Source of the DNA: Planctomyces sp.
GTDB lineage: Bacteria; Planctomycetota; Planctomycetia; Planctomycetales; Planctomycetaceae
Direction of reading: 5' to 3'
Assembly (NCBI GenBank): GCA_016795105.1
Contig: JAEUIH010000026.1
Coordinates: 1-64,000, forward strand
Length of the DNA: 64,000 nt
Part shown: positions 2,990 to 25,849 of the stretch, piece after piece
Layout of the letters: the number at the start of each line of letters is the position of its first letter
How positions within the stretch are numbered: position 1 is the stretch's first letter
Notes under the pieces: model-generated
What the model was told of the DNA's origin: nothing
Databases searched by the model: none
The model's input: the letters and a program-made list of their open reading frames with translations, nothing else
Made by a program: the position numbers and the translations under genes

Positions 2990-4090
2990 CTAGCGGATTC
3001 TGAACCCCCAGACCTCTGGAGACCGAATCCCAGGACGCTGTTCGCCGCTGATGATCAGATTCCAGCCGTTCCATTCGACGCAGGGAGCAGTTACTCGCGG
3101 GTGCGAAATCCCGACAGACTCTTGCCATGAGTTTTTTTGTTCGTTCCAGTAGATGACTTGTCTGGAGAAGCCCTGATGAGCTTGAGGTGTGGCGGAGATC
3201 TGTCCGCCATCGTCCCCGCCGGGAATCAGAAGGCCGCCTTTGATAAACACTGCCGGTGATGGAGCCGCCACAACTGCGGCCGGCAAATCGGGCATCCGAG
3301 TCCATCCAGCCGTTGGATCGAATTGCCAGGCATCTCTGAGATAGTGACGCATCACTTTTTGACTGGCCCCCGCCTGTTGATTCGCACCGGTCCTCAGTTC
3401 CGCTCCACTCACCAAGTAGAAGTTCCCATCTCGGGCACCGGCAATAGCAAGAATTCTTCCCGTCCACGGGCAGGTACTCAATAACTTCCAGCCTTCTTCC
3501 GGCGCCATGAGGTTCAGGGTCAGCATTGAGTTCAGAGCTTCTGTGGAGTCAGGACTCGTTTGACCGCCTGCAATATAAACCACATCGCCGGAAACAGCTC
3601 CACAGGCGTTTGCAACAGGAAACGGCAAGTCCGGAAATGGTTTGATTCGAATTTCATCGTGCAGAACTTCTATCCCGAAGACTTTGGAGGAATGGCTGGT
3701 TGCATCGCTTCCTCCAACACAAATAACCACGTCCTTCCAGGTCACAGAGACGCCGTAAGCGAGGGACTGTGGCAAGCGTCCAATCCTCGTCCACTCGTTG
3801 CCACCTGGTTTCAAACGAAAGACGGTATCATACCAGACTTTTCTTCCGCCCTCCCATGGTCGACCGTCCGGGAAGTTCGCGCCGCCAGCGAAGATCAGTT
3901 GCCCGTGAGAGACTCCGCTGAACCCCGAGGCAAAACCTTCCCGATCAGGAATCGATGGAAACTGACGCCACTCAATGGACAGTTCACTCGCGTCGTCGCT
4001 ACCGGCACAAGGCTGCTGAGTAAACCACGAATGGACCGACAGGAACAACCCGAAAACGATAACCCGGGAGAAGATCAGAGTCATAGGCAT
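2990..4090 (-). CDS. Secreted Kelch-repeat protein, N-acetylneuraminate epimerase (NanM)-like
   Basis: A 366-residue protein with an N-terminal signal peptide (hydrophobic stretch about residues 4-20) and repeated Kelch blades with GG pairs: LIFAGGANF, VICVGGSDA, VYIAGGQTS, LLIPGGDDG. NanM-type Kelch proteins act in the periplasm and speed conversion of alpha-sialic acid to its beta anomer. The gene has a GAGGAG ribosome binding site and overlaps the end of the upstream epimerase gene by 10 bases. Its place between the 2-epimerase and transporter genes supports the sialic-acid role. A different sugar-binding Kelch function cannot be excluded from sequence alone. Confidence 0.82.
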   Translation of the reverse strand: MPMTLIFSRVIVFGLFLSVHSWFTQQPCAGSDDASELSIEWRQFPSIPDREGFASGFSGVSHGQLIFAGGANFPDGRPWEGGRKVWYDTVFRLKPGGNEWTRIGRLPQSLAYGVSVTWKDVVICVGGSDATSHSSKVFGIEVLHDEIRIKPFPDLPFPVANACGAVSGDVVYIAGGQTSPDSTEALNSMLTLNLMAPEEGWKLLSTCPWTGRILAIAGARDGNFYLVSGAELRTGANQQAGASQKVMRHYLRDAWQFDPTAGWTRMPDLPAAVVAAPSPAVFIKGGLLIPGGDDGGQISATPQAHQGFSRQVIYWNEQKNSWQESVGISHPRVTAPCVEWNGWNLIISGEQRPGIRSPEVWGFRIR

Positions 4091-18526: not shown

Positions 18527-18733
18527 GTGGTTAAGTTGCGTTTGCGTGATAATGAAAGTGTGAATGAAGCGGTACGTCGATTCCGCAAGCTGGTCGAGCA
18601 TGCGGGCGTCAAGAAAGAAATGCGCAAACGAGAATTCTACGAAAAGCCAAGTGATCAACGTCGTCGCGATCGTCGCCGAGCCGAAATGCGTGCTCGCCGA
18701 GCAAACCAGGAACCCACACTGGAAATCCAATAA
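18527..18733 (+). CDS. rpsU: 30S ribosomal protein S21
   Basis: A 68-residue bS21 protein: [18 protein letters not shown] opens the family pattern, with basic [14 protein letters not shown] and an arginine-rich tail. It starts at GTG with a textbook AAGGAGG 6 bases upstream. bS21 binds the small subunit near the anti-Shine-Dalgarno end and aids initiation. It is monocistronic: three hairpin repeats and a strong terminator follow. It is divergent from polA, sharing a promoter region of about 265 bases. Confidence 0.95.
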
Positions 18734-18740
18734 AAAAGAC

Positions 18741-18840
18741 GTAGCTTGGGGATTCCTGCCCGAGCCGTTGTTTAAATGTAGCTTGGGCATTCCTGCCCGA
18801 GCCGCTGTTTAAATGTAGCTTGGGGATTCCTGCCCGAGCC
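18741..18840. repeat. Three tandem 37-bp hairpin units (GTAGCTTGGG...)
   Basis: Units beginning GTAGCTTGGG start at 18741, 18778 and 18815, an exact 37-base period. Each folds through GCTTGGGC pairing with GCCCGAGC (one G-T pair) around ATTCCT. A related single unit, GTAGGTTGGGCATTCCAGCC, occurs at 51605. They lie between the rpsU stop and its terminator. Confidence 0.88.
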
Positions 18841-18858
18841 ACCCCCTGTGGGTTGCCT

Positions 18859-18886
18859 AAAAGCGTGCTGCGAGGCACGCTTTTTT
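18859..18886 (+). terminator. Rho-independent terminator after rpsU
   Basis: AAAAGCGTGC (18859-18868) pairs with GCACGCTTTT (18875-18884) around a 6-base loop and is followed by further T residues. It ends the rpsU unit before the GalT-like gene. Confidence 0.88.
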
Positions 18887-18917
18887 CTTTGGAGTTGAGA
18901 GAACAGGGATCCCTGTG

Positions 18918-20042
18918 ATGAACCGTCCGGAGCTTCGTTTGGATGTTCTCACCGGACGCCAGGTGATCGTGGCCCCGGGCCGGTCTGTTCGACCGAACGC
19001 ACACGCAGAGGATCCACCGATCACACGAACCGATGACCCGTTCACTGAAGGGTGTGAGAGCGAGACTCCGTCGGAATATTGGGCACTTCGACGAGAAGGG
19101 AGTCGTGCGAACGAACCGGGCTGGAAAGTTCGAGTTGTTCCCAACCGATATCCGGCTGTTGCTCGTGACGATCAGTCTGAGGCCACACCTGCTGAGGCCG
19201 CGGATCCTCTGTTTCCGAGGCAGGTCTTTACCGGCACGCATGATGTCGTGATTGAATGTTCCGACAATCGGACACGTCTTGTGGATTTGCGTCCCGCAGA
19301 GTTGCTGGAAGTTCTTAGGGCATGGCAAATTCGACTTCGTGAACTCGAGAGAGAGCATCGCTACCGCACAGTGGCCGTGTTTCGAAATGAGGGCTTTAGT
19401 GCCGGGGCGAGTCTCTCCCATTGTCACTCGCAGATCCTTGCGTCGGAGCGGCTCGTTCCTGGAGTTGCGGCACGTGAGCGCTGTGCGGTCGACTATGCTG
19501 AACGAACGGGACGCAGTTTATTTCGGGACTGGTTATCGGCGGAGCGTACCGCCGGTGAACGTATGATCTCAGAGTCTGATGCACTCACAGTATTGAGTCC
19601 ATTTGCATCACGTGCAGGATGGCAGGTGAACTTCGTACCCCGGACCGAGTGTCCAGCATTCTATTCGTCAGCTTCGGAATCACTTCTGAATGAGCTGGCA
19701 TCGCGGCTGCATGGGACCGTCTCGGCATTGAATCGGCTTGCAGGGTCATTCTCATACAATTTGCTGATGGTCCATCCGCCATTGCCGAATCATCAGCCAG
19801 AGTCACCGCCACATTATCCATGGATGCTTGAATTGATTCCTCGTCTTGGACGAGCAGCCGGGTGGGAATTACTGACAGACGTTGAGATTGTGACGGTTCC
19901 GCCTGAGATTGCAGCAGCCGGAATTCGTGAAGAGCTGGCAATCGCAGGCACAGACTCCGGACCTTTATTACATCCGCAGGTCTCCGATGAAACTCAATAT
20001 CGCTGGGTACCGGGGTTGCAGCGGGAAAATCGAACCGGATAG
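18918..20042 (+). CDS. galT: Galactose-1-phosphate uridylyltransferase-like protein
   Basis: A 374-residue HIT-superfamily nucleotidylyltransferase of the GalT type. The active-site triad is HCHSQ at residues 168-172, with the nucleophile His170. Other family blocks are VVPNRYPA near 74-80, the N-terminal RLDVLTGRQVIVAPGRS, and WQVNFVPRTECPAF. The usual zinc-binding CxxC pair is not present (a single Cys at 46), as in some bacterial homologs. The enzyme swaps UDP between glucose and galactose phosphates. The ATG at 18918 is preferred to the GTG just before it. It is followed at 84 bases by the lipid-type operon, possibly on one transcript. Confidence 0.85.
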   Translation: MNRPELRLDVLTGRQVIVAPGRSVRPNAHAEDPPITRTDDPFTEGCESETPSEYWALRREGSRANEPGWKVRVVPNRYPAVARDDQSEATPAEAADPLFPRQVFTGTHDVVIECSDNRTRLVDLRPAELLEVLRAWQIRLRELEREHRYRTVAVFRNEGFSAGASLSHCHSQILASERLVPGVAARERCAVDYAERTGRSLFRDWLSAERTAGERMISESDALTVLSPFASRAGWQVNFVPRTECPAFYSSASESLLNELASRLHGTVSALNRLAGSFSYNLLMVHPPLPNHQPESPPHYPWMLELIPRLGRAAGWELLTDVEIVTVPPEIAAAGIREELAIAGTDSGPLLHPQVSDETQYRWVPGLQRENRTG

Positions 20043-20126
20043 GATGTGACCATCCGGTTCTTCAGAGAATCAGGGCGGCGACCAGACACCGTACTGTTCC
20101 GCAGCAGAACCGTTGGGGAGGCATTC

Positions 20127-20873
20127 ATGAGTTGGGCGGATACGCAAACGTCCCTGTTGGTACACGTACAGGAATCGCTTGATGAATCCAGGCTGTTAAG
20201 TTGCGAGTACTTTGTAAAACTGCTTCATGGCACGTTGTCCTGCGACTTGTTTGCAAGAACCCAGATACAGTTCTTTTATGCTGTACGATACTTCTCTCGT
20301 CCCATGGCTGCGCTTGCTGCCAGAATACCGGATTCTGCCAGTCGACAGTCACTCGTTCAAAATCTCTCCGAAGAGCATGGTCTCGATGACGACCATGAAA
20401 TTGACGCGAACGGACTCCGCAGTTCGAAGTTCGAGCCAGACATGGCACATGATCAGACGTTTCTTGAGTTCCTTCATCGACTTGGAGTAAGGCGAGACGA
20501 AGTTCTGAACTCCCGTCCCGGCTCTGCCGTTCTGGCTTTCAATAATGGCCTGTGGGGAGTCTGTGCATCGGAATCGATTCCCTTTGCATTTGCCGCTTTG
20601 GGAGCGATCGAGTATGCATTTGCGGATATCTCCGCTCTGATTGGTCGACGTGTCGTTGAATCCGGCTGGATCACAGAAGGAGAATTGATCCACTACAAAC
20701 TGCATGCGGAAATTGACAAACGCCATGCGGGAGATTTTTTTCAGTCGATCGAGCGGGACTGGAGGGGCGACAGCCATCACAGAACGGAAATCTGTTCGGG
20801 AATCGATCTTGGAATCTACATGTTCCGACGACTTTATGAGGATATGCTGATCGAGGCGGAGGTCGAAGAATGA
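20127..20873 (+). CDS. Heme-oxygenase-fold dimetal oxidase (CADD/UndA-like), first gene of lipid operon
   Basis: A 248-residue all-helical protein resembling the TenA/PqqC/CADD fold. The predicted metal ligands follow the CADD pattern: Glu83-x6-His90 (EHGLDDDH), Glu162 in GAIEY, and His193-x3-Asp197-x2-His200 in HAEIDKRH. Members of this heme-oxygenase-like dimetal oxidase group cleave or desaturate amino or fatty acids, as UndA and BesC do. The start at 20127 is fixed by GGGGAGG 6 bases upstream, rather than the longer frame at 20046. Its stop overlaps the desaturase start as ATGA. The substrate is unknown. Confidence 0.75.
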   Translation: MSWADTQTSLLVHVQESLDESRLLSCEYFVKLLHGTLSCDLFARTQIQFFYAVRYFSRPMAALAARIPDSASRQSLVQNLSEEHGLDDDHEIDANGLRSSKFEPDMAHDQTFLEFLHRLGVRRDEVLNSRPGSAVLAFNNGLWGVCASESIPFAFAALGAIEYAFADISALIGRRVVESGWITEGELIHYKLHAEIDKRHAGDFFQSIERDWRGDSHHRTEICSGIDLGIYMFRRLYEDMLIEAEVEE

Positions 20874-21811
20874 ATTCGGTACCGCTCGAATCTGCTGAAC
20901 CACAGGCAATCCATCAACTGCACGAGATTCATCCTTTGCGGCATGTCCAGAGAATTGTTTGCTTTATCGCACTTCACTTTATCGCTACGAATATTGCCTT
21001 GATAGAGGTCAATCTTCCCGGCGTGATGAAAGTACCCATCCTGATCGCGTGCTGGTTGACTGCCGGTGCTTCTCTGCACGGAATCAGCCTGTTTACCCAC
21101 GAAGCAGTGCACGGAACGTTATGTCGAAGGCGCGTATTGAACGACATTGTCGGAGCGTTGTGTGCATTTCCGGTCCTTCAGACATGTGCCGCCTACCGAG
21201 TTCTCCACCTCAGGCATCATCGCCACCTGGGCGATGCAGGCGATCCCGATCACTATGAGAACTACACGCAGTGGACCTGGATGGTCTTCATTATGAACTG
21301 GCTGCGATTGTTCATTGGCTACCCTGTCTATATCACGATGATTCCAATTCTGGGATTCCGACAGGGAACACGGGTGGATCGCATCTGGATTGTCGGCGAA
21401 GTATGTGCATTAGCCGCGCTTGTGGCAGCAATCGTGATGTCGCCGATTCCGCTGCCCTGGATCGTGCATGGGTGGATCATTCCGATGCTGTTCATCAACA
21501 CGATGGTGAACATTCGCGGCATGAGCCAGCACACTCTGCTGGAACACGCAAAGGATCCAATCCAGGGAACGAGGTCCATCCTGACGAACGGGCTCGTGCG
21601 ATTCTTCATGTGTAATGAAAATTATCACCTCGAACACCATCTTTATCCGGGTGTTCCGTGGCACGGACTACCTCAATTGCATGCCATGCTTCAGAGTGAG
21701 CTCACAAAGCGTGGAGCGCCGTTTATCGGTTCGTACCTTGCGTTTGTTCGGGAATTCCTGATTCACAGCCTTCGCCGCAGTCCGTTTGGGCGGCGATCTC
21801 TCAGGCAATGA
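20870..21811 (+). CDS. Membrane fatty acid desaturase/hydroxylase
   Basis: A 313-residue integral membrane di-iron enzyme with four predicted membrane segments. The three histidine boxes are present: HEAVH near residue 76, HLRHHRH near 106, and HLEHH in CNENYHLEHHLYPGVPW near 248. It should introduce a double bond or hydroxyl into a lipid-bound acyl chain or a carotenoid-like substrate at the membrane. It is translationally coupled to the preceding oxidase gene (ATGA) and 9 bases before the PAP2-like gene. It differs from the acyl-CoA desaturase at 43576, which has the HRYLAH type of boxes. Confidence 0.87.
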   Translation: MNSVPLESAEPQAIHQLHEIHPLRHVQRIVCFIALHFIATNIALIEVNLPGVMKVPILIACWLTAGASLHGISLFTHEAVHGTLCRRRVLNDIVGALCAFPVLQTCAAYRVLHLRHHRHLGDAGDPDHYENYTQWTWMVFIMNWLRLFIGYPVYITMIPILGFRQGTRVDRIWIVGEVCALAALVAAIVMSPIPLPWIVHGWIIPMLFINTMVNIRGMSQHTLLEHAKDPIQGTRSILTNGLVRFFMCNENYHLEHHLYPGVPWHGLPQLHAMLQSELTKRGAPFIGSYLAFVREFLIHSLRRSPFGRRSLRQ

Positions 21812-21820
21812 CGTGAACTG

Positions 21821-22663
21821 ATGCGAGTGCAGCCTGACGTAAAGCGACTACGACGATTCCCAGAGAACTGTTTCGCATTCACGGCCTTATTGATTTCCAT
21901 GTTGTTGTTAGTACGCGGCCCGGCAGCATTGGGAATCGCAGCAGCAGTCTGGGGCATTTTGTATTCCTGCTGTGTCGCTGTTTCCCGGCCGGAAGGCAGA
22001 CCGAGAATACTCATAAATTACGCGGCAGCGCTGTCAGGCTACTCTTTGTCAGGGCACGTGATTGATGGTCTGCGAATTTGTGATCGTTCTGTTGAGCTGC
22101 TGGAAATGGATCGATTCTTTTTTGGAGAATCTCCGGCAGTAGCATTTCAATGGATCAACATCCGATGGCTAAACGAACTGCTCAGCTTTTCTTACCTCAG
22201 CTATCATGTGTATCTGCACTGGCTGCTTTGGGATGCAATCGCAACACCAGAATCAGCGATCAATACAATGAGTCGTCGAGTTTATGGAGCGTTTGCAGTT
22301 GGGTTGCCAATGTATTTGCTGCTTCCTGCTCCATCGATCTGTTATTCGTTTCCTGAATTGTTCACTGATTCCGTAAACGGGTACTGGGGGACAAGGGCAA
22401 CACTATGGATTGTGGCCAATTTTGCGGCAAAGTATGACTCGTTTCCCAGCCTGCACGTCTTCATCATGGGAACAATGGTCTGGTTTGATCCAAAACGATT
22501 CGGAGTCAGACGGAAGATCATGATTCCGGCATATGGACTTATGATTGTGTCGACGATTCTGCTCAGATTTCATTATGGCGTCGATCTTTTATGTGGCGTG
22601 GTGCTGTTGACAATATATGTGTTCATCGTGAGTCGCAGAACAGCAAATGGTGAGATGGCATGA
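21821..22663 (+). CDS. PAP2-like membrane phosphatase/phosphotransferase
   Basis: A 280-residue polytopic membrane protein. Its C-terminal part carries PAP2-type catalytic motifs: FPSLH (Ser210, His212) and R-x-HYGVD (Arg249, His251, Asp255). The N-terminal part has several membrane helices. The pattern resembles the inositol phosphotransferase (Aur1/Ipt1-like) branch of PAP2, which transfers phosphorylated head groups to lipids or removes lipid phosphate. The first PAP2 motif (KxxxxxxRP) is not clear. The stop overlaps the next start as ATGA. It probably provides dephosphorylated diacylglycerol or a head-group transfer step in this operon. Confidence 0.72.
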   Translation: MRVQPDVKRLRRFPENCFAFTALLISMLLLVRGPAALGIAAAVWGILYSCCVAVSRPEGRPRILINYAAALSGYSLSGHVIDGLRICDRSVELLEMDRFFFGESPAVAFQWINIRWLNELLSFSYLSYHVYLHWLLWDAIATPESAINTMSRRVYGAFAVGLPMYLLLPAPSICYSFPELFTDSVNGYWGTRATLWIVANFAAKYDSFPSLHVFIMGTMVWFDPKRFGVRRKIMIPAYGLMIVSTILLRFHYGVDLLCGVVLLTIYVFIVSRRTANGEMA

Positions 22664-23760
22664 CTACAGCTGAACCATGGGCAGTCGAAGCAGCCTGCTA
22701 TCCGCTTGCATTTGCCCAGGTTCGCGAGGATCCGCGAGTGGATCTGGCAGTCCTTCAGAGGCTGAAAGACCGTCGCCGCGTCGTTATGATTGCTTCAGGC
22801 GGCGAGACGGCAGTGCAAATGGTCCGTGCCGGTGTCGATCAACTCCATCTTGTCGATATGAATCCCTCTCAAATTGCATTGACTCGGCTTAAGCTGCATC
22901 TGTCTGCAACAGAGTCTCCTGCTCGTTCGCTGCAGATTCTGGGGCATGAACATCAGGAACCAGATGATCGATTGCTGCACCTGGACCGACTGAAGAGTGC
23001 ATTAGGGCTATCCAGTGAAATCTTCGGTCCGGAGGACGTGGTTGCAGGATTCGGCCCCGATCATGTCGGTCGGTATGAATGGACATTTTCCAGCCTGAGA
23101 AAGAACCTGGTGTCAATTCAGCAAATTGTTGAAGCTGCTCTGAGAGAAAATGATGCTTCTGCAAAGATTCGGCTGACGAGTTCTGAATCTTTGGATGGGG
23201 CCGCGTTTTCGGCTGCGTTTCATCAAACGATGTCGCTGGAGAATCTGGTCTGTCTGTTCGGAAAAGGTGCTACTCAGAATCCAAGGCAGCCATTTTCGGA
23301 CCACTTTCTGGAACGAACTCGTGACGCAATCAATCGTAGGGGAGCGAATCGAAACCCGTTTCTCTGGCAAATTCTGTTCGGTCAGTTTCCGCCAGCTGAC
23401 CCATATGACTGCTGGATTCCAATGCCGAGTGCGGTTGCGGGAAATCAGAGAACTACTCCGATCTATCATCAGGCAACAATGAATGACGCGTTGCAGGCCA
23501 TGGATGATTCTTCGGTTGATCTCATTCATCTCTCGAACATTTGCGACTGGCTGGATGAGAGTGAAGCGGCATTGACATTGACTCAGGCCAGTCGTGTCCT
23601 GCGTACAGGCGGCTGGGTCATACTTCGGCAACTCAATTCTTCTTTGTCCATAGACTCAATTCCGGCAGGCCTTATGTGGGACGTGGAATTTGGGAGAAGG
23701 CTTGAAGCCGGCGATCGAAGCTACTTCTATCCGCAAATCTATGCTGGAACAAAGTTGTGA
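22660..23760 (+). CDS. BtaA-like (DUF3419) SAM-dependent aminocarboxypropyl transferase-like protein
   Basis: A 366-residue soluble protein with a Rossmann-type SAM-binding start (VVMIASGGETAVQMVRAG, then HLVDMNPSQIALTRLKLHL) matching the DUF3419 family that includes BtaA. BtaA transfers the 3-amino-3-carboxypropyl group of SAM to diacylglycerol to start betaine lipid synthesis. A second block, VDLIHLSNICDWLDES, followed by ASRVLRTGGWVILRQLN, fits the family's C-terminal methyltransferase-like half. No BtaB (N-methyltransferase) gene is seen nearby. The start and stop both overlap neighbours by 4 bases. Confidence 0.65.
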   Translation: MTTAEPWAVEAACYPLAFAQVREDPRVDLAVLQRLKDRRRVVMIASGGETAVQMVRAGVDQLHLVDMNPSQIALTRLKLHLSATESPARSLQILGHEHQEPDDRLLHLDRLKSALGLSSEIFGPEDVVAGFGPDHVGRYEWTFSSLRKNLVSIQQIVEAALRENDASAKIRLTSSESLDGAAFSAAFHQTMSLENLVCLFGKGATQNPRQPFSDHFLERTRDAINRRGANRNPFLWQILFGQFPPADPYDCWIPMPSAVAGNQRTTPIYHQATMNDALQAMDDSSVDLIHLSNICDWLDESEAALTLTQASRVLRTGGWVILRQLNSSLSIDSIPAGLMWDVEFGRRLEAGDRSYFYPQIYAGTKL

Positions 23761-24779
23761 AAGTGCCGCAGTTAGAAGACGAAGTTCCCTCGGATTTGGT
23801 CAACCAGCTCGAGGAATTTGAAGGAGAATTTCTGTATCCGCTGGGAGGGGCAAGCTGGTTCAGCATCTCTCATGGCAAGGACTATCTGAGGTTTTTTCGA
23901 GCAATGGGACGCAGTGTCCTGTTCATTGCTGAGCAGCATGGTCAAGTCGTTGGAAGTCTTGTTCTCGTTCGCCGCACACTCTCAGAATTTGCGAAGGGTA
24001 CGTATCTCCGTATTCCTTCATATTATGTGTGCGACTTCAAGATCTCTCGACGCGCGAGGTGGACTCGAATTCCGGCGATGCTGCTGCGAGCCGCGTATGA
24101 TCTGGTCAGCAGCGAAGGGGGGCAGTCAGCATACGGAATTGTAATGGGAGGGACGGAACGGTCTCCATCCTCCTACACGGGAAGGCTTGGCATTCCGGAG
24201 TTTCAATGTGTCGGTGAAATTCTGATCCTCAGAATTCTGACGGAAACTATGCCATCGGAGGCATCGAGGTCTGAATCAACGGCGGCAATGGCGTCTCACA
24301 CAGAGTACGAGACCGTTTCAACGGCCTTACAGGATGAAGACTTTGTCAGAGTCCGTCAGCGGTTCCGGGAACCGAGTCCAGGTTGCGATGCACTGCGACC
24401 GGAGATTGGAAATGCATGGATGCGTTCGGAAATGACACCCGGAATTGTGACGGTCAAGGGCGATCTCGGCACAGGCATTCTTGAGGATACTCGCCGTGGG
24501 AAAAAACTGTACCTCATGGGGAAATCCGAAATGGTCTCATCGCACTTATCAGCGCTGTCGTGGACTGAGCCACAGTGGGGAGCAATGGTCATTCGGCGCG
24601 CACTGGAAGCATCCGGAAGTCGACAGTTTCCGGCAATGTTCTGCTCAGTACCTGCGACCATCTGGTCAAAGCTTGAGCCGTACCTGAATGGGCTGCAAAT
24701 ACAGATTTCTCCAGCGACCATTTATGGCTGCGGTCTGGCAAACGACAGACAGTGGTGGGTGAATACGTCAGAGATCTGA
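23757..24779 (+). CDS. GNAT-like acyltransferase-related protein, last gene of lipid operon
   Basis: A 340-residue soluble protein starting at GTG overlapping the previous stop (GTGA). The first half contains a GNAT-like strand pair, SVLFIAEQHGQVVGSLVLVRR, then a core with RIPAMLLRAAYDLV and YGIVMGGTER. The second half looks like a second lobe. The similarity to N-acyltransferases is only at motif level, so function is tentative. In this operon it could acylate an amino group on the lipid head made by the DUF3419 protein. It ends next to a bidirectional-looking hairpin. Confidence 0.6.
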   Translation: MKVPQLEDEVPSDLVNQLEEFEGEFLYPLGGASWFSISHGKDYLRFFRAMGRSVLFIAEQHGQVVGSLVLVRRTLSEFAKGTYLRIPSYYVCDFKISRRARWTRIPAMLLRAAYDLVSSEGGQSAYGIVMGGTERSPSSYTGRLGIPEFQCVGEILILRILTETMPSEASRSESTAAMASHTEYETVSTALQDEDFVRVRQRFREPSPGCDALRPEIGNAWMRSEMTPGIVTVKGDLGTGILEDTRRGKKLYLMGKSEMVSSHLSALSWTEPQWGAMVIRRALEASGSRQFPAMFCSVPATIWSKLEPYLNGLQIQISPATIYGCGLANDRQWWVNTSEI

Positions 24780-24804
24780 TCCGTGTCAGGTCTGACATTT
24801 CCAC

Positions 24805-24839
24805 AGTACTCATCACGCTCCGTCGTGATGACGAGTACT
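24805..24839. repeat. Convergent-junction hairpin, copy 2
   Basis: AGTACTC (24805-24811) pairs with GAGTACT (24833-24839) and ATCACG (24812-24817) with CGTGAT (24824-24829), leaving a 3-base bulge. It is the reverse complement of the 15439-15472 element with few changes. Again it lies between two convergent genes, so it probably serves as a terminator in both directions. Confidence 0.78.
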
Positions 24840-24840
24840 A

Positions 24841-25311
24841 TCAGGGCATGACAAACTGATGTCCCTGAGGCTTCACGGTCAGGACGGGGCACGGAGACTT
24901 GCGGACAATCTTCTCGGCGACACTTCCGAGTAAAACGTGCATCAATCCACCGCGACCATGTGTACCAATCACGATCAGATCGACATCATTCTGTTTTGCG
25001 TAGTCAATGATCTCGAGAAAAACGGCCCCGGTTCGGACTTCCCGGACAATGGGCTGGCCATTTTCCCAGCCGCCACCTGGCAAATGTTCAATCCGTTTCT
25101 TCGCGTCGTCGATCAGGGCCGCAGACTGAGCTTCCATGGCCTCTGCCGAGAATGCGTGTGATTCGGGAACCAGCATCGCCGGATCCGGTACAACGTGCAT
25201 CAGGTGCAATTGTGAGCCAAAGCGTGCGGCAATGGCACACGCGTAATCAACAGCTGGTTTGCTGAAATCGCTGAAGTCCGTGGGGACGAGAATTTTCTTT
25301 AGTTGAATCAT
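24841..25311 (-). CDS. Universal stress protein (UspA family)
   Basis: A 156-residue UspA-domain protein. It opens with the family strand KKILVPTDFSDFSKPAVDYA and ends with the ATP-binding type signature GTHGRGGLMHVLLGS, then VAEKIVRKSPCPVLTVK. The Gly-rich motif predicts ATP binding. Universal stress proteins often sit beside cytochrome oxidase genes and respond to low oxygen or energy stress. It is 13 bases beyond the DUF4405 gene on the same strand, so it may be the last gene of the cbb3 transcript. Confidence 0.93.
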   Translation of the reverse strand: MIQLKKILVPTDFSDFSKPAVDYACAIAARFGSQLHLMHVVPDPAMLVPESHAFSAEAMEAQSAALIDDAKKRIEHLPGGGWENGQPIVREVRTGAVFLEIIDYAKQNDVDLIVIGTHGRGGLMHVLLGSVAEKIVRKSPCPVLTVKPQGHQFVMP

Positions 25312-25324
25312 GACAGTTTGCTCC

Positions 25325-25849
25325 CTACTGGGGTGGTTCGGAAATTGAAAACATGGCCGCCACCACGAACGAGGCAGACGTTAACAGGATCGCAATCAAA
25401 AGACCAACACCATAGACGGTTCGAATACCGTCGTCCGGAATTTCTTTCTGATGCAGCATTCTTCGAGAAATCACACTGCAGACCCAGGTCCAGTGCAGCA
25501 TCACGTGGACCAGTACGCCAACTCCAAGCAGGCTTACAAGTCCAAATTCAATTGAACACCATTGTCCGTAGGACATGCCCCACAGAGTCCACCCTTTGGC
25601 AGCGACACCTGGCGGAAAGACAAACTGCACAATGACAGCAGCAATTCCCAACGCGATAAAGATCACCATCAAAAGCGCGTCGAGCCAGAAATTGATTTCA
25701 GACATCGACATCCGACCGTGTTCTTCAGAAGTGTCATGCGTGGAGAGTTCGTCTTCCACAGCCTCACGCTTTGCCGGTCGGCGCATTTGATCCAGTGCGG
25801 GTGACTTTCTGGATGACGCTTCAGGAGACGTCTGACTTTCGATATCCAT
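25325..25849 (-). CDS. DUF4405-like membrane protein in cbb3 oxidase cluster
   Basis: A 174-residue protein with a charged N-terminal 50 residues followed by three predicted membrane helices (INFWLDALLMVIF, the segment ending GVLVHVMLHWTWV, and GVGLLIAILLTSASF). A paired pattern HVMLHW with WT resembles the histidine-bearing helices of DUF4405 and cytochrome b561-like proteins. The real start is near 25849; the same frame continues to 26695 but that part is a shadow of the SafE gene. A shorter start at MSMSEIN (about 25711) is possible. Role unknown, probably electron transfer or oxidase assembly. Confidence 0.7.
   Translation of the reverse strand: MDIESQTSPEASSRKSPALDQMRRPAKREAVEDELSTHDTSEEHGRMSMSEINFWLDALLMVIFIALGIAAVIVQFVFPPGVAAKGWTLWGMSYGQWCSIEFGLVSLLGVGVLVHVMLHWTWVCSVISRRMLHQKEIPDDGIRTVYGVGLLIAILLTSASFVVAAMFSISEPPQ

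Follow-up and report, generated by a model that had tools for sequence, protein, structure and literature searches.

The window analysed here, a stretch of 64,000 nucleotides of Planctomyces sp. (contig JAEUIH010000026.1), contains a five-gene operon of which three genes form a core that recurs in many phyla. This triad encodes a heme-oxygenase-like dimetal oxidase (HDO; gene 1), an S-adenosylmethionine (SAM) enzyme of the DUF3419 family related to BtaA (gene 4) and a tandem GNAT protein whose predicted fold is nearest to that of N-myristoyltransferase (NMT; gene 5), while the remaining two genes encode a membrane desaturase/hydroxylase (gene 2) and a PAP2-like membrane enzyme (gene 3). That the three core genes serve one pathway is, in our view, nearly certain. 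We consider it somewhat probable that this pathway combines aminocarboxypropyl transfer from SAM with N-acylation and oxidation to yield an amphiphilic N-acyl amino-acid lipid, desaturase and PAP2 enzyme being accessory. The three genes as a unit, their families, predicted folds and conserved residues are established, and from these we infer substrates and chemistry. Among the papers listed by a literature search of PMC, no title or abstract opening described the triad or its product.

Conserved core and operon layout

Searching 392 Planctomycetota genomes with the gene-5 protein yielded a match in 17 of them, the window's own genome counted. Since the homologues are adjoined, in varying order, by the gene of a DUF3419 protein and mostly by that of an HDO, we regard the triad as the core of the cassette. 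In addition, named genome contigs were scanned with an HDO alignment and the best 80 of 100 relatives were kept as loci (L numbers); as the scan pattern was built from cassette HDOs, this set is enriched for cassettes, and it includes a few contigs already present in the gene-5 search. The genes of a DUF3419 protein, a GNAT protein and an HDO occur together in 75 of the 80 loci. Three others (L059, L074, L086) miss the DUF3419 gene and have a contig edge on that very side. At L082 and L090 the HDO stands alone. Their genomes (G392, G393) coincide in contig numbers and coordinates with G178 and G149, in which the DUF3419-GNAT pair occupies a different contig, so that the triad is complete but split. 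Two further genomes of the family of G178 and G149 (G134 and G191) have their DUF3419 and GNAT genes together on a single contig, while a second contig bears a strong HDO match (312 and 315 bits); these contigs are short. A 504-residue gene is inserted between DUF3419 and GNAT in G107.

Strong GNAT matches (at least 130 bits; next best 42) are present in 18 of the 392 genomes, and so are strong HDO matches (at least 170 bits; next best 90). Both occur in 17 genomes, only GNAT in one (G065), only HDO in one (G236) and neither in 373 (Fisher p 1.3e-27, with thresholds chosen after the score gap had been seen and with related genomes that are not independent of each other). The two singletons are fragments: in G236 the contig measures 3,190 bases, the HDO match ends at 3,186 and a VRED-type DUF3419 gene (see below) adjoins, while in G065 the GNAT match starts at base 4 of its contig and a separate weak HDO (51 bits) is present. 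In G214, which is 67 % complete, adjacent GNAT and HDO genes lie where a contig ends, and a DUF3419 gene was not found. The tree distances of the three core proteins correlate with each other (r 0.855, 0.789 and 0.868 versus permutation maxima of 0.242, 0.128 and 0.105) in the 74 of 85 locus sets which passed completeness and length filters, the permutations leaving shared ancestry in. On a chlamydial contig (L052:3745-5583) DUF3419 protein and HDO are even fused within one frame of 613 residues (residues 33-385 and 391-609). The HDO, which the initial annotation of this DNA had read as one of two enzymes modifying the acyl chain, belongs to the core and is no accessory.

As a side observation, the DUF3419-GNAT pair at L036:8764-11200 and L037:8435-10889 is followed by a NUDIX gene (the family was scanned in L036, the gene of L037 falling into the same cluster), and the HDO is found elsewhere in that genome, on a different contig.

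All five reading frames were confirmed at their positions on the plus strand in the list of open reading frames of the window (Table 1). Three 4-base overlaps (at 20870, 22660 and 23757) and one 9-base gap (21812-21820) were read from the sequence, exactly as initially annotated, and the family calls made at that time for genes 1 to 4 are borne out by Pfam assignments (Haem_oxygenas_2, FA_desaturase, PAP2_3 and DUF3419) which all exceed the curated cut-off. For gene 1 the ATG start at 20127 chosen earlier was kept; the mechanical reading frame opens at GTG 20046. Of 172 junctions between neighbouring cassette genes in related loci 72 are overlaps, 47 of them of exactly 4 bases, and the others are gaps of 0-30 (73), 31-100 (19) or more than 100 bases (8), counted with starts from a simple in-house gene caller which leaves genes below 60 codons uncalled. 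The five-gene operon is real, and the closeness of its junctions exceeds chance.

As a conserved unit the five-gene set was rejected, desaturase and PAP2 genes being absent from most of the 80 loci. A desaturase related to gene 2 is found in 18 and a PAP2 gene in 7 of them, by profiles made from two sequences each which distant versions may escape. The initial view of five genes as one unit thus holds for the operon in the window and fails for its conservation, which comprises three genes. Conservation of gene order in relatives, on which the initial proposal had been made to depend, was looked for and found. Seventeen of the 18 desaturase loci are contained in the tree, all of them inside a 26-member clade holding the window, and L058 lies outside the tree sampling. 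The desaturase displays the histidine boxes HEAVH (77), HLRHH (113) and HLEHH (253). The PAP2 protein carries PSLH (209) and HYGVD (251), in keeping with the PSxH and HxxxD form of the PAP2 catalytic motif. On the contig shared by L023 and L055 both proteins are fused to one of 645 residues (L023:7292-9229).

The source genome is an 8.9 Mb draft of 391 contigs. Upstream of the operon the gene of a GalT-like protein (PF01087) ends 84 bases before gene 1, and downstream a Usp protein gene lies on the opposite strand. A scan of 18700-25400 revealed three promoter-like and four terminator-like sites, the shuffle means being higher (4.3 and 6.4). An inverted repeat at 24805-24839, in the spacer that separates the operon from the convergent Usp gene, is unconvincing as a terminator (fold z -1.64).

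Table 1. Features of the operon, in positions of the window
Feature	Position	Strand	Evidence	Remark
HDO, heme-oxygenase-like dimetal oxidase (CADD/BesC-like)	20127..20873	+	PF14518, E 3.9e-14	core gene
15-residue insertion, HDO residues 86-100, between conserved E83 and H108	20382..20426	+		absent from the other 11 alignment rows
Membrane desaturase/hydroxylase	20870..21811	+	PF00487, E 1.5e-45; three histidine boxes	accessory gene
PAP2_3 membrane enzyme	21821..22663	+	PF14378, E 6.9e-12	accessory gene
DUF3419 protein, BtaA-related SAM enzyme, VRED subfamily	22660..23760	+	PF11899, E 2.9e-28	core gene
VRED motif, DUF3419 residues 21-24	22720..22731	+		WED in most other DUF3419 proteins examined
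NMT-like tandem GNAT acyltransferase (gene 5)	23757..24779	+	AlphaFold2 model and fold match	core gene
Conserved C-terminus SEI of gene 5	24768..24776	+		carboxylate would be the general base (predicted)

Sequence and predicted structure of the core enzymes

Gene 5 alone matches no Pfam family. Among the 62 members of its family alignment, however, 48 match Acetyltransf_9 (PF13527) and 45 Acetyltransf_1 at E <=1. The AlphaFold2 model was based on these 62 sequences, namely that of the window and 61 of 77 called relatives after close Poribacteria copies and fragments had been removed by hand. It exhibits a tandem GNAT fold with a mean pLDDT (predicted local distance difference test) of 91.3, so that the initial description of gene 5 as GNAT-like is upheld. 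When the model was compared with the PDB by Foldseek, all 50 matches listed were N-myristoyltransferases (best E 8.4e-12); as these fill all 50 places, fold relatives other than NMT are unranked. The relation to a lipid-type enzyme which had been proposed is thereby supported, the model being closest to a fatty-acyl transferase fold. VIA-align superimposes residues 1-340 of the model on residues 156-496 of human NMT1 (Z 20.3, 292 residues, root mean square deviation 3.7).

In these alignments the matched range finishes at residue 496 of human, 455 of yeast, 451 of Candida and 410 of P. vivax NMT, the latter two being presumably the last residues of the respective enzymes, and, as expected, it ends earlier for two C-terminally shortened variants of human NMT. 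The last residue of gene 5 is conserved as well: it is Ile in 74 of the 77 relatives and Leu in one, L095 ends at a contig edge and L057 is the other exception. No comparable conservation of the last residue is observed at the C-termini of the HDO or the DUF3419 protein. The Y90-V-C segment of the window protein (family consensus Y-L-C) may resemble an F-L-C segment of NMT.

According to two papers, the C-terminal carboxylate of Leu455 is the catalytic base of yeast NMT (PMC4964394), and in human NMT Gln496 is the base and Phe247-Leu248 form the oxyanion hole (PMC7048800). The former source terms a C-terminal base unique to NMT, yet names Phe402 of Eis a possible remote base (PMC4964394). Gene 5 shares with NMT the two GNAT domains in one chain, an alignment which extends over the whole model to the last residue of the human and yeast enzymes, and the conserved C-terminal residue; it differs in being bacterial, in an identity of 6-10 % in the structural alignments and in its partner genes, which are of small-molecule type. 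With Eis (Acetyltransf_9) it shares the tandem GNAT architecture and the Acetyltransf_9 matches of its family, and in Eis, too, a C-terminal residue is proposed as remote base (PMC4964394). In contrast, Eis possesses an extra sterol-carrier-like C-terminal domain, as reported (PMC4964394), and is not among the 50 fold matches listed. On the strength of the model we predict gene 5 to be an acyltransferase of NMT/Eis type, nearest to NMT by fold; Eis is included in this label since it, too, has a candidate C-terminal remote base.

A match to protein N-myristoyltransferase raises the idea that the NMT-like enzyme acylates proteins, DUF3419 protein and HDO modifying a protein or peptide. We consider this very improbable, as the cassettes of different groups have no neighbouring gene in common that could encode a protein substrate (although a short peptide gene could escape because genes below 60 codons are uncalled), and the constant partner is related to a small-molecule alkyl transferase.

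The DUF3419 protein of the window matches PF11899 with 99.5 bits (cut-off 28.2). Its AlphaFold2 model (pLDDT 94.7) adopts the fold of class I SAM enzymes (Z 13.0 to a methyltransferase, with 162 of 366 residues aligned). Foldseek gave no match to this model at E <=0.001, and single-sequence PDB searches with the DUF3419, desaturase and PAP2 proteins found no relatives. PF11899 is present in 86 of the 392 genomes, with scores ranging from a top class of about 330-420 bits, via intermediates, to the cassette members, which stay below 105 bits. Of 75 cassette loci, 74 show the VRED motif, the exception (L071) lacking the N-terminus. By contrast, the motif is found in none of 51 non-cassette loci, a set made up of the 30 loci with the highest PF11899 scores, 20 lower-scoring loci chosen by hand and the second copy of the source genome; 41 contain WED and 10 neither motif. 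Comparing 79 VRED-type with 41 WED-type proteins reveals Thr50 in place of Asn (78/79 versus 41/41) and Asn293 in place of Asp (78/79 versus 40/41), whereas E23, D24, G48, D66, N68, Q71, N232, R323 and Y357 are present in at least 37 of the 41 and at least 74 of the 79. The differences at R22 and partly at F18 and V21 follow from the selection of the groups by motif, for which the 10 proteins with neither motif were dropped.

In common with BtaA, the cassette protein thus has the Pfam family, the class I SAM fold and the nine residues named. It differs by VRED for WED and the two exchanges, by being tied to GNAT and HDO, and by its PF11899 score compared with that of the top class, provided that the latter represents BtaA. 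To judge by their sequences, the cassette proteins are a distinct subfamily and not plain BtaA; of the BtaA-like character initially ascribed to gene 4 the kinship remains and the identity with plain BtaA does not. The acceptor of the VRED subfamily appears to have changed, possibly to an acidic one in view of the added Arg, and the altered conserved residues make it unsafe to assume diacylglycerol.

This bears on the model of the initial annotation, a variant of betaine-lipid synthesis in which the DUF3419 protein would make diacylglyceryl-homoserine from diacylglycerol supplied by PAP2, N-acylation by the GNAT protein would replace methylation by BtaB, and HDO and desaturase would alter the acyl chains. 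Homology to BtaA, the shared operon of PAP2 and desaturase genes and the desaturase-PAP2 fusion are in line with such a variant. We nonetheless deem it improbable: the two-sequence profiles find no PAP2 gene in 73 and no desaturase gene in 62 of the 80 loci (diacylglycerol could have other sources), and the subfamily departs from the WED type at three positions (Trp to Arg, Asp to Asn and Asn to Thr). BtaB, correctly reported to be missing from the five genes, is not found among the scanned neighbours either, the rest of the genome not having been searched for it. A plain betaine lipid was set aside because the operon has no BtaB gene and the subfamily carries the substitutions named.

A second DUF3419 gene of the source genome (L038:9529-10701; G000:C266) is of the WED type, its neighbours resembling, by eye, P450, sulfotransferase-like and PEP-synthase-like proteins. 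Of the DUF3419 proteins with neither motif, those of L156, L164 and L167 have weak GNAT matches nearby (E 1.8e-7, 2.7e-4 and 2.3e-7); near that of L166 there is an HDO match, likewise weak (E 0.0056). The link of DUF3419 to GNAT and HDO may therefore reach beyond the triad.

An HDO profile built from 12 relatives has five matches in the PDB: two CADD sequences (1rcw, E 2e-15), another 4-aminobenzoate synthase (NePabS, 9pj4), BesC (7twa) and HrmI (9n1a). The metal ligands of CADD, E81, H88, E142, H174, D178 and H181, align with E, H, E, H, D and H, which are invariant in 37 of 37 sequences. At the positions of Tyr27 and Lys152 of CADD, which we take to be its self-sacrificed signature residues, the profile consensus is Phe and Ile. 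With the sacrificial Tyr and Lys missing, a CADD-type 4-aminobenzoate synthase was rejected. Compared with the HDOs CADD, BesC and UndA, the cassette enzyme agrees in PF14518 and in all six metal-ligand positions and differs in the two CADD residues and in its partner genes. The accessible part of a review on HDOs states that the characterised members, about a dozen, mostly act on fatty or amino acids, and contains no mention of the triad (PMC13108848).

Distribution and neighbours of the triad

The triad occurs in eight phyla, seven of them represented, by record title, among the 80 loci. These include 18 from Planctomycetota, 17 from Poribacteria, 14 from Verrucomicrobiota, 11 from Myxococcota or deltaproteobacteria, two from Acidobacteria and one from Chlamydiae; the proteobacterial part consists of six gammaproteobacteria, three alphaproteobacteria (two Rickettsiaceae and one Candidatus Finniella), one betaproteobacterium and two unassigned. 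The eighth phylum is Actinomycetota, with Mycobacterium riyadhense. Named strains with the cassette are Haloferula sp. BvORR071, Verrucomicrobium sp. BvORR106, Hahella ganghwensis DSM 17046 and Kistimonas asteriae KMD 001.

The cassette of the window clusters with 12 Verrucomicrobiota cassettes of the order HDO-desaturase-(PAP2)-DUF3419-GNAT and is nested inside them. Ultrafast bootstrap support is 98 for these 13, 100 for the 12 without L050 and 87 for the innermost six (FastTree 1.0, 0.94 and 0.59). Of the window's family 27 other genomes were sampled, and none of them contains a full-length gene-5 relative, a weak partial match in G291 reaching 22.5 bits. Nesting in Verrucomicrobiota together with absence from sampled family members suggests that the cassette of the window was gained horizontally. 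No relative of the HDO, queried with the alignment, was found in IMG/VR, and none of the GNAT protein in phage records.

A Rickettsiaceae metagenome-assembled genome (MAG) of about 1.0 Mb and unstated completeness keeps the triad, which fits a role in the envelope or in host interaction better than an optional secondary metabolism. On the M. riyadhense plasmid NZ_OY970457.1 (L227:6261-11922) the DUF3419, HDO and GNAT genes are followed, 106 bases on, by an MMPL transporter of 945 residues (PF03176, 676.8 bits). Mycobacterial MmpL proteins mostly export lipids. In an Endozoicomonas contig HlyD-type and MFS genes lie downstream of the HDO gene, and clustering detects relatives of both, in the same order, in Kistimonas.

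Of the neighbour clusters, the six present in most loci (10-13) are all restricted to Poribacteria; those which span several groups (9, 8, 7 and 5 loci) mostly lie kilobases from the cassette. One representative each of these ten clusters was assigned to Laminin_G_3, HHH, MORN, Rieske, WD40, DUF5916, Response_reg, ABC_tran, Pkinase/TPR and DUF1501, and ten further chosen neighbours to HlyD, MFS, GST, ECF sigma, DnaA, phosphatidylserine decarboxylase and, in four cases, to no family. Among these scanned representatives no specific common partner beyond the triad was seen.

Some local features may be added. The M. riyadhense cassette is located near integrases and an IS110 transposase, and the VRED stretch of its DUF3419 gene lies upstream in a different reading frame, so that either the annotated start is too short or the gene is frameshifted. 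In Betaproteobacteria bacterium UKL13-2 the phosphatidylserine decarboxylase gene (L109:6225-7172) is upstream of the triad.

Proposed pathway and nature of the product

The reading we favour comprises three steps. In the first, by homology, the VRED-type DUF3419 protein would transfer the 3-amino-3-carboxypropyl group from SAM, and its acceptor, probably other than the plain diacylglycerol of BtaA, would become a conjugate with a homoserine-type amino acid. In the second, to which fold and conserved C-terminus point, the NMT-like GNAT protein would acylate the new alpha-amine from acyl-CoA or acyl-ACP, its own C-terminal carboxylate serving as the base. In the third, the dimetal HDO would oxidise the N-acyl amino-acid unit by desaturation, decarboxylation, C-C cleavage or hydroxylation. 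Desaturase and PAP2 enzyme may tailor the product further or supply the acceptor in the window and its clade, and the product may be kept in the membrane or exported. The aminocarboxypropyl step is quite likely in our estimation, and N-acylation of the SAM-derived amine is likely, if somewhat less so, while a lipid-like product is at best slightly favoured. An amphiphile is preferred on account of the NMT fold, the kinship to BtaA, the desaturase and the PAP2 enzyme (once fused to each other), the MmpL and HlyD-MFS neighbours and the retention in the Rickettsiaceae assembly of about 1.0 Mb. In ornithine-lipid pathways (OlsB/OlsF) an acyltransferase N-acylates an amino acid to make a lipid; the triad shares this idea, but its amino acid would derive from SAM through the DUF3419 protein.

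Several observations weigh against an N-acyl amino-acid lipid made in this way. No NMT appears by sequence, neither among the 19 matches (E <=10) of the 62-row gene-5 profile to PDB chains, nor with an earlier 16-row profile searched likewise, nor among the Pfam matches of the 62 family members, so that the link to NMT rests on fold and C-terminus. The alignment begins at residue 156 of human NMT; with nothing in gene 5 that corresponds to the preceding part of NMT, specificity for long acyl chains is uncertain and acetyl transfer is possible. As reported, human NMT1 lacking its last two residues retains kcat, with lowered substrate affinity (PMC7048800), and the C-terminal remote base may be shared by Eis, which is an acetyltransferase (PMC4964394). 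The exchanges at R22, T50 and N293 weaken the carry-over of BtaA function. Exporter genes beside the cassette were seen in only two of the lineages examined. Finally, BesC, HrmI and CADD, the enzymes to which the HDO is closest, have amino acids or a protein tyrosine as their substrates, and the best NCBIfam match of the desaturase is the arginine hydroxylase GntB, albeit with 84 bits at a cut-off of 380.

These last two similarities make a soluble amino-acid product conceivable, namely a secreted specialised metabolite such as an N-acetylated or short-acylated non-protein amino acid acting as signal, chelator or toxin, for which the desaturase would be a GntB-like amino-acid hydroxylase and the PAP2 enzyme a phosphatase. 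The C-terminal feature common to Eis-like acetyltransferases and the HlyD and MFS genes downstream in Endozoicomonas would suit such a product, too. However, NMT and not Eis fills the 50 fold matches listed, the MmpL linkage points to an amphiphile, the cassette is retained in the small Rickettsiaceae MAG, and the neighbours recurring across groups are only generic (response regulators, ABC ATPases, protein kinases, DUF1501, lectin-like, WD40 and Rieske proteins). We regard a soluble metabolite as somewhat unlikely, though ahead of the betaine-lipid variant and clearly ahead of protein acylation.

On the whole, the initial annotation, which had suspected a novel membrane lipid, is partly supported; with exporter genes adjoining the cassette in two unrelated lineages, the product may be a secreted amphiphile instead. 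Tentatively, the triad could stand for a new class of N-acyl-homoserine-type lipids or exported signals present in many phyla and made via a bacterial relative of NMT which uses its own C-terminus as base, followed by a dimetal oxidase. Being short, self-contained, co-inherited and present in named strains, it is a ready target. If the proposed pathway is true, it would add a class of lipids or signals and a new HDO reaction and would extend BtaA-type chemistry to a new acceptor; a bacterial acyltransferase with the NMT fold would bear on the origin of eukaryotic NMT, and free-living bacteria, intracellular symbionts and a mycobacterium would have a product class in common.

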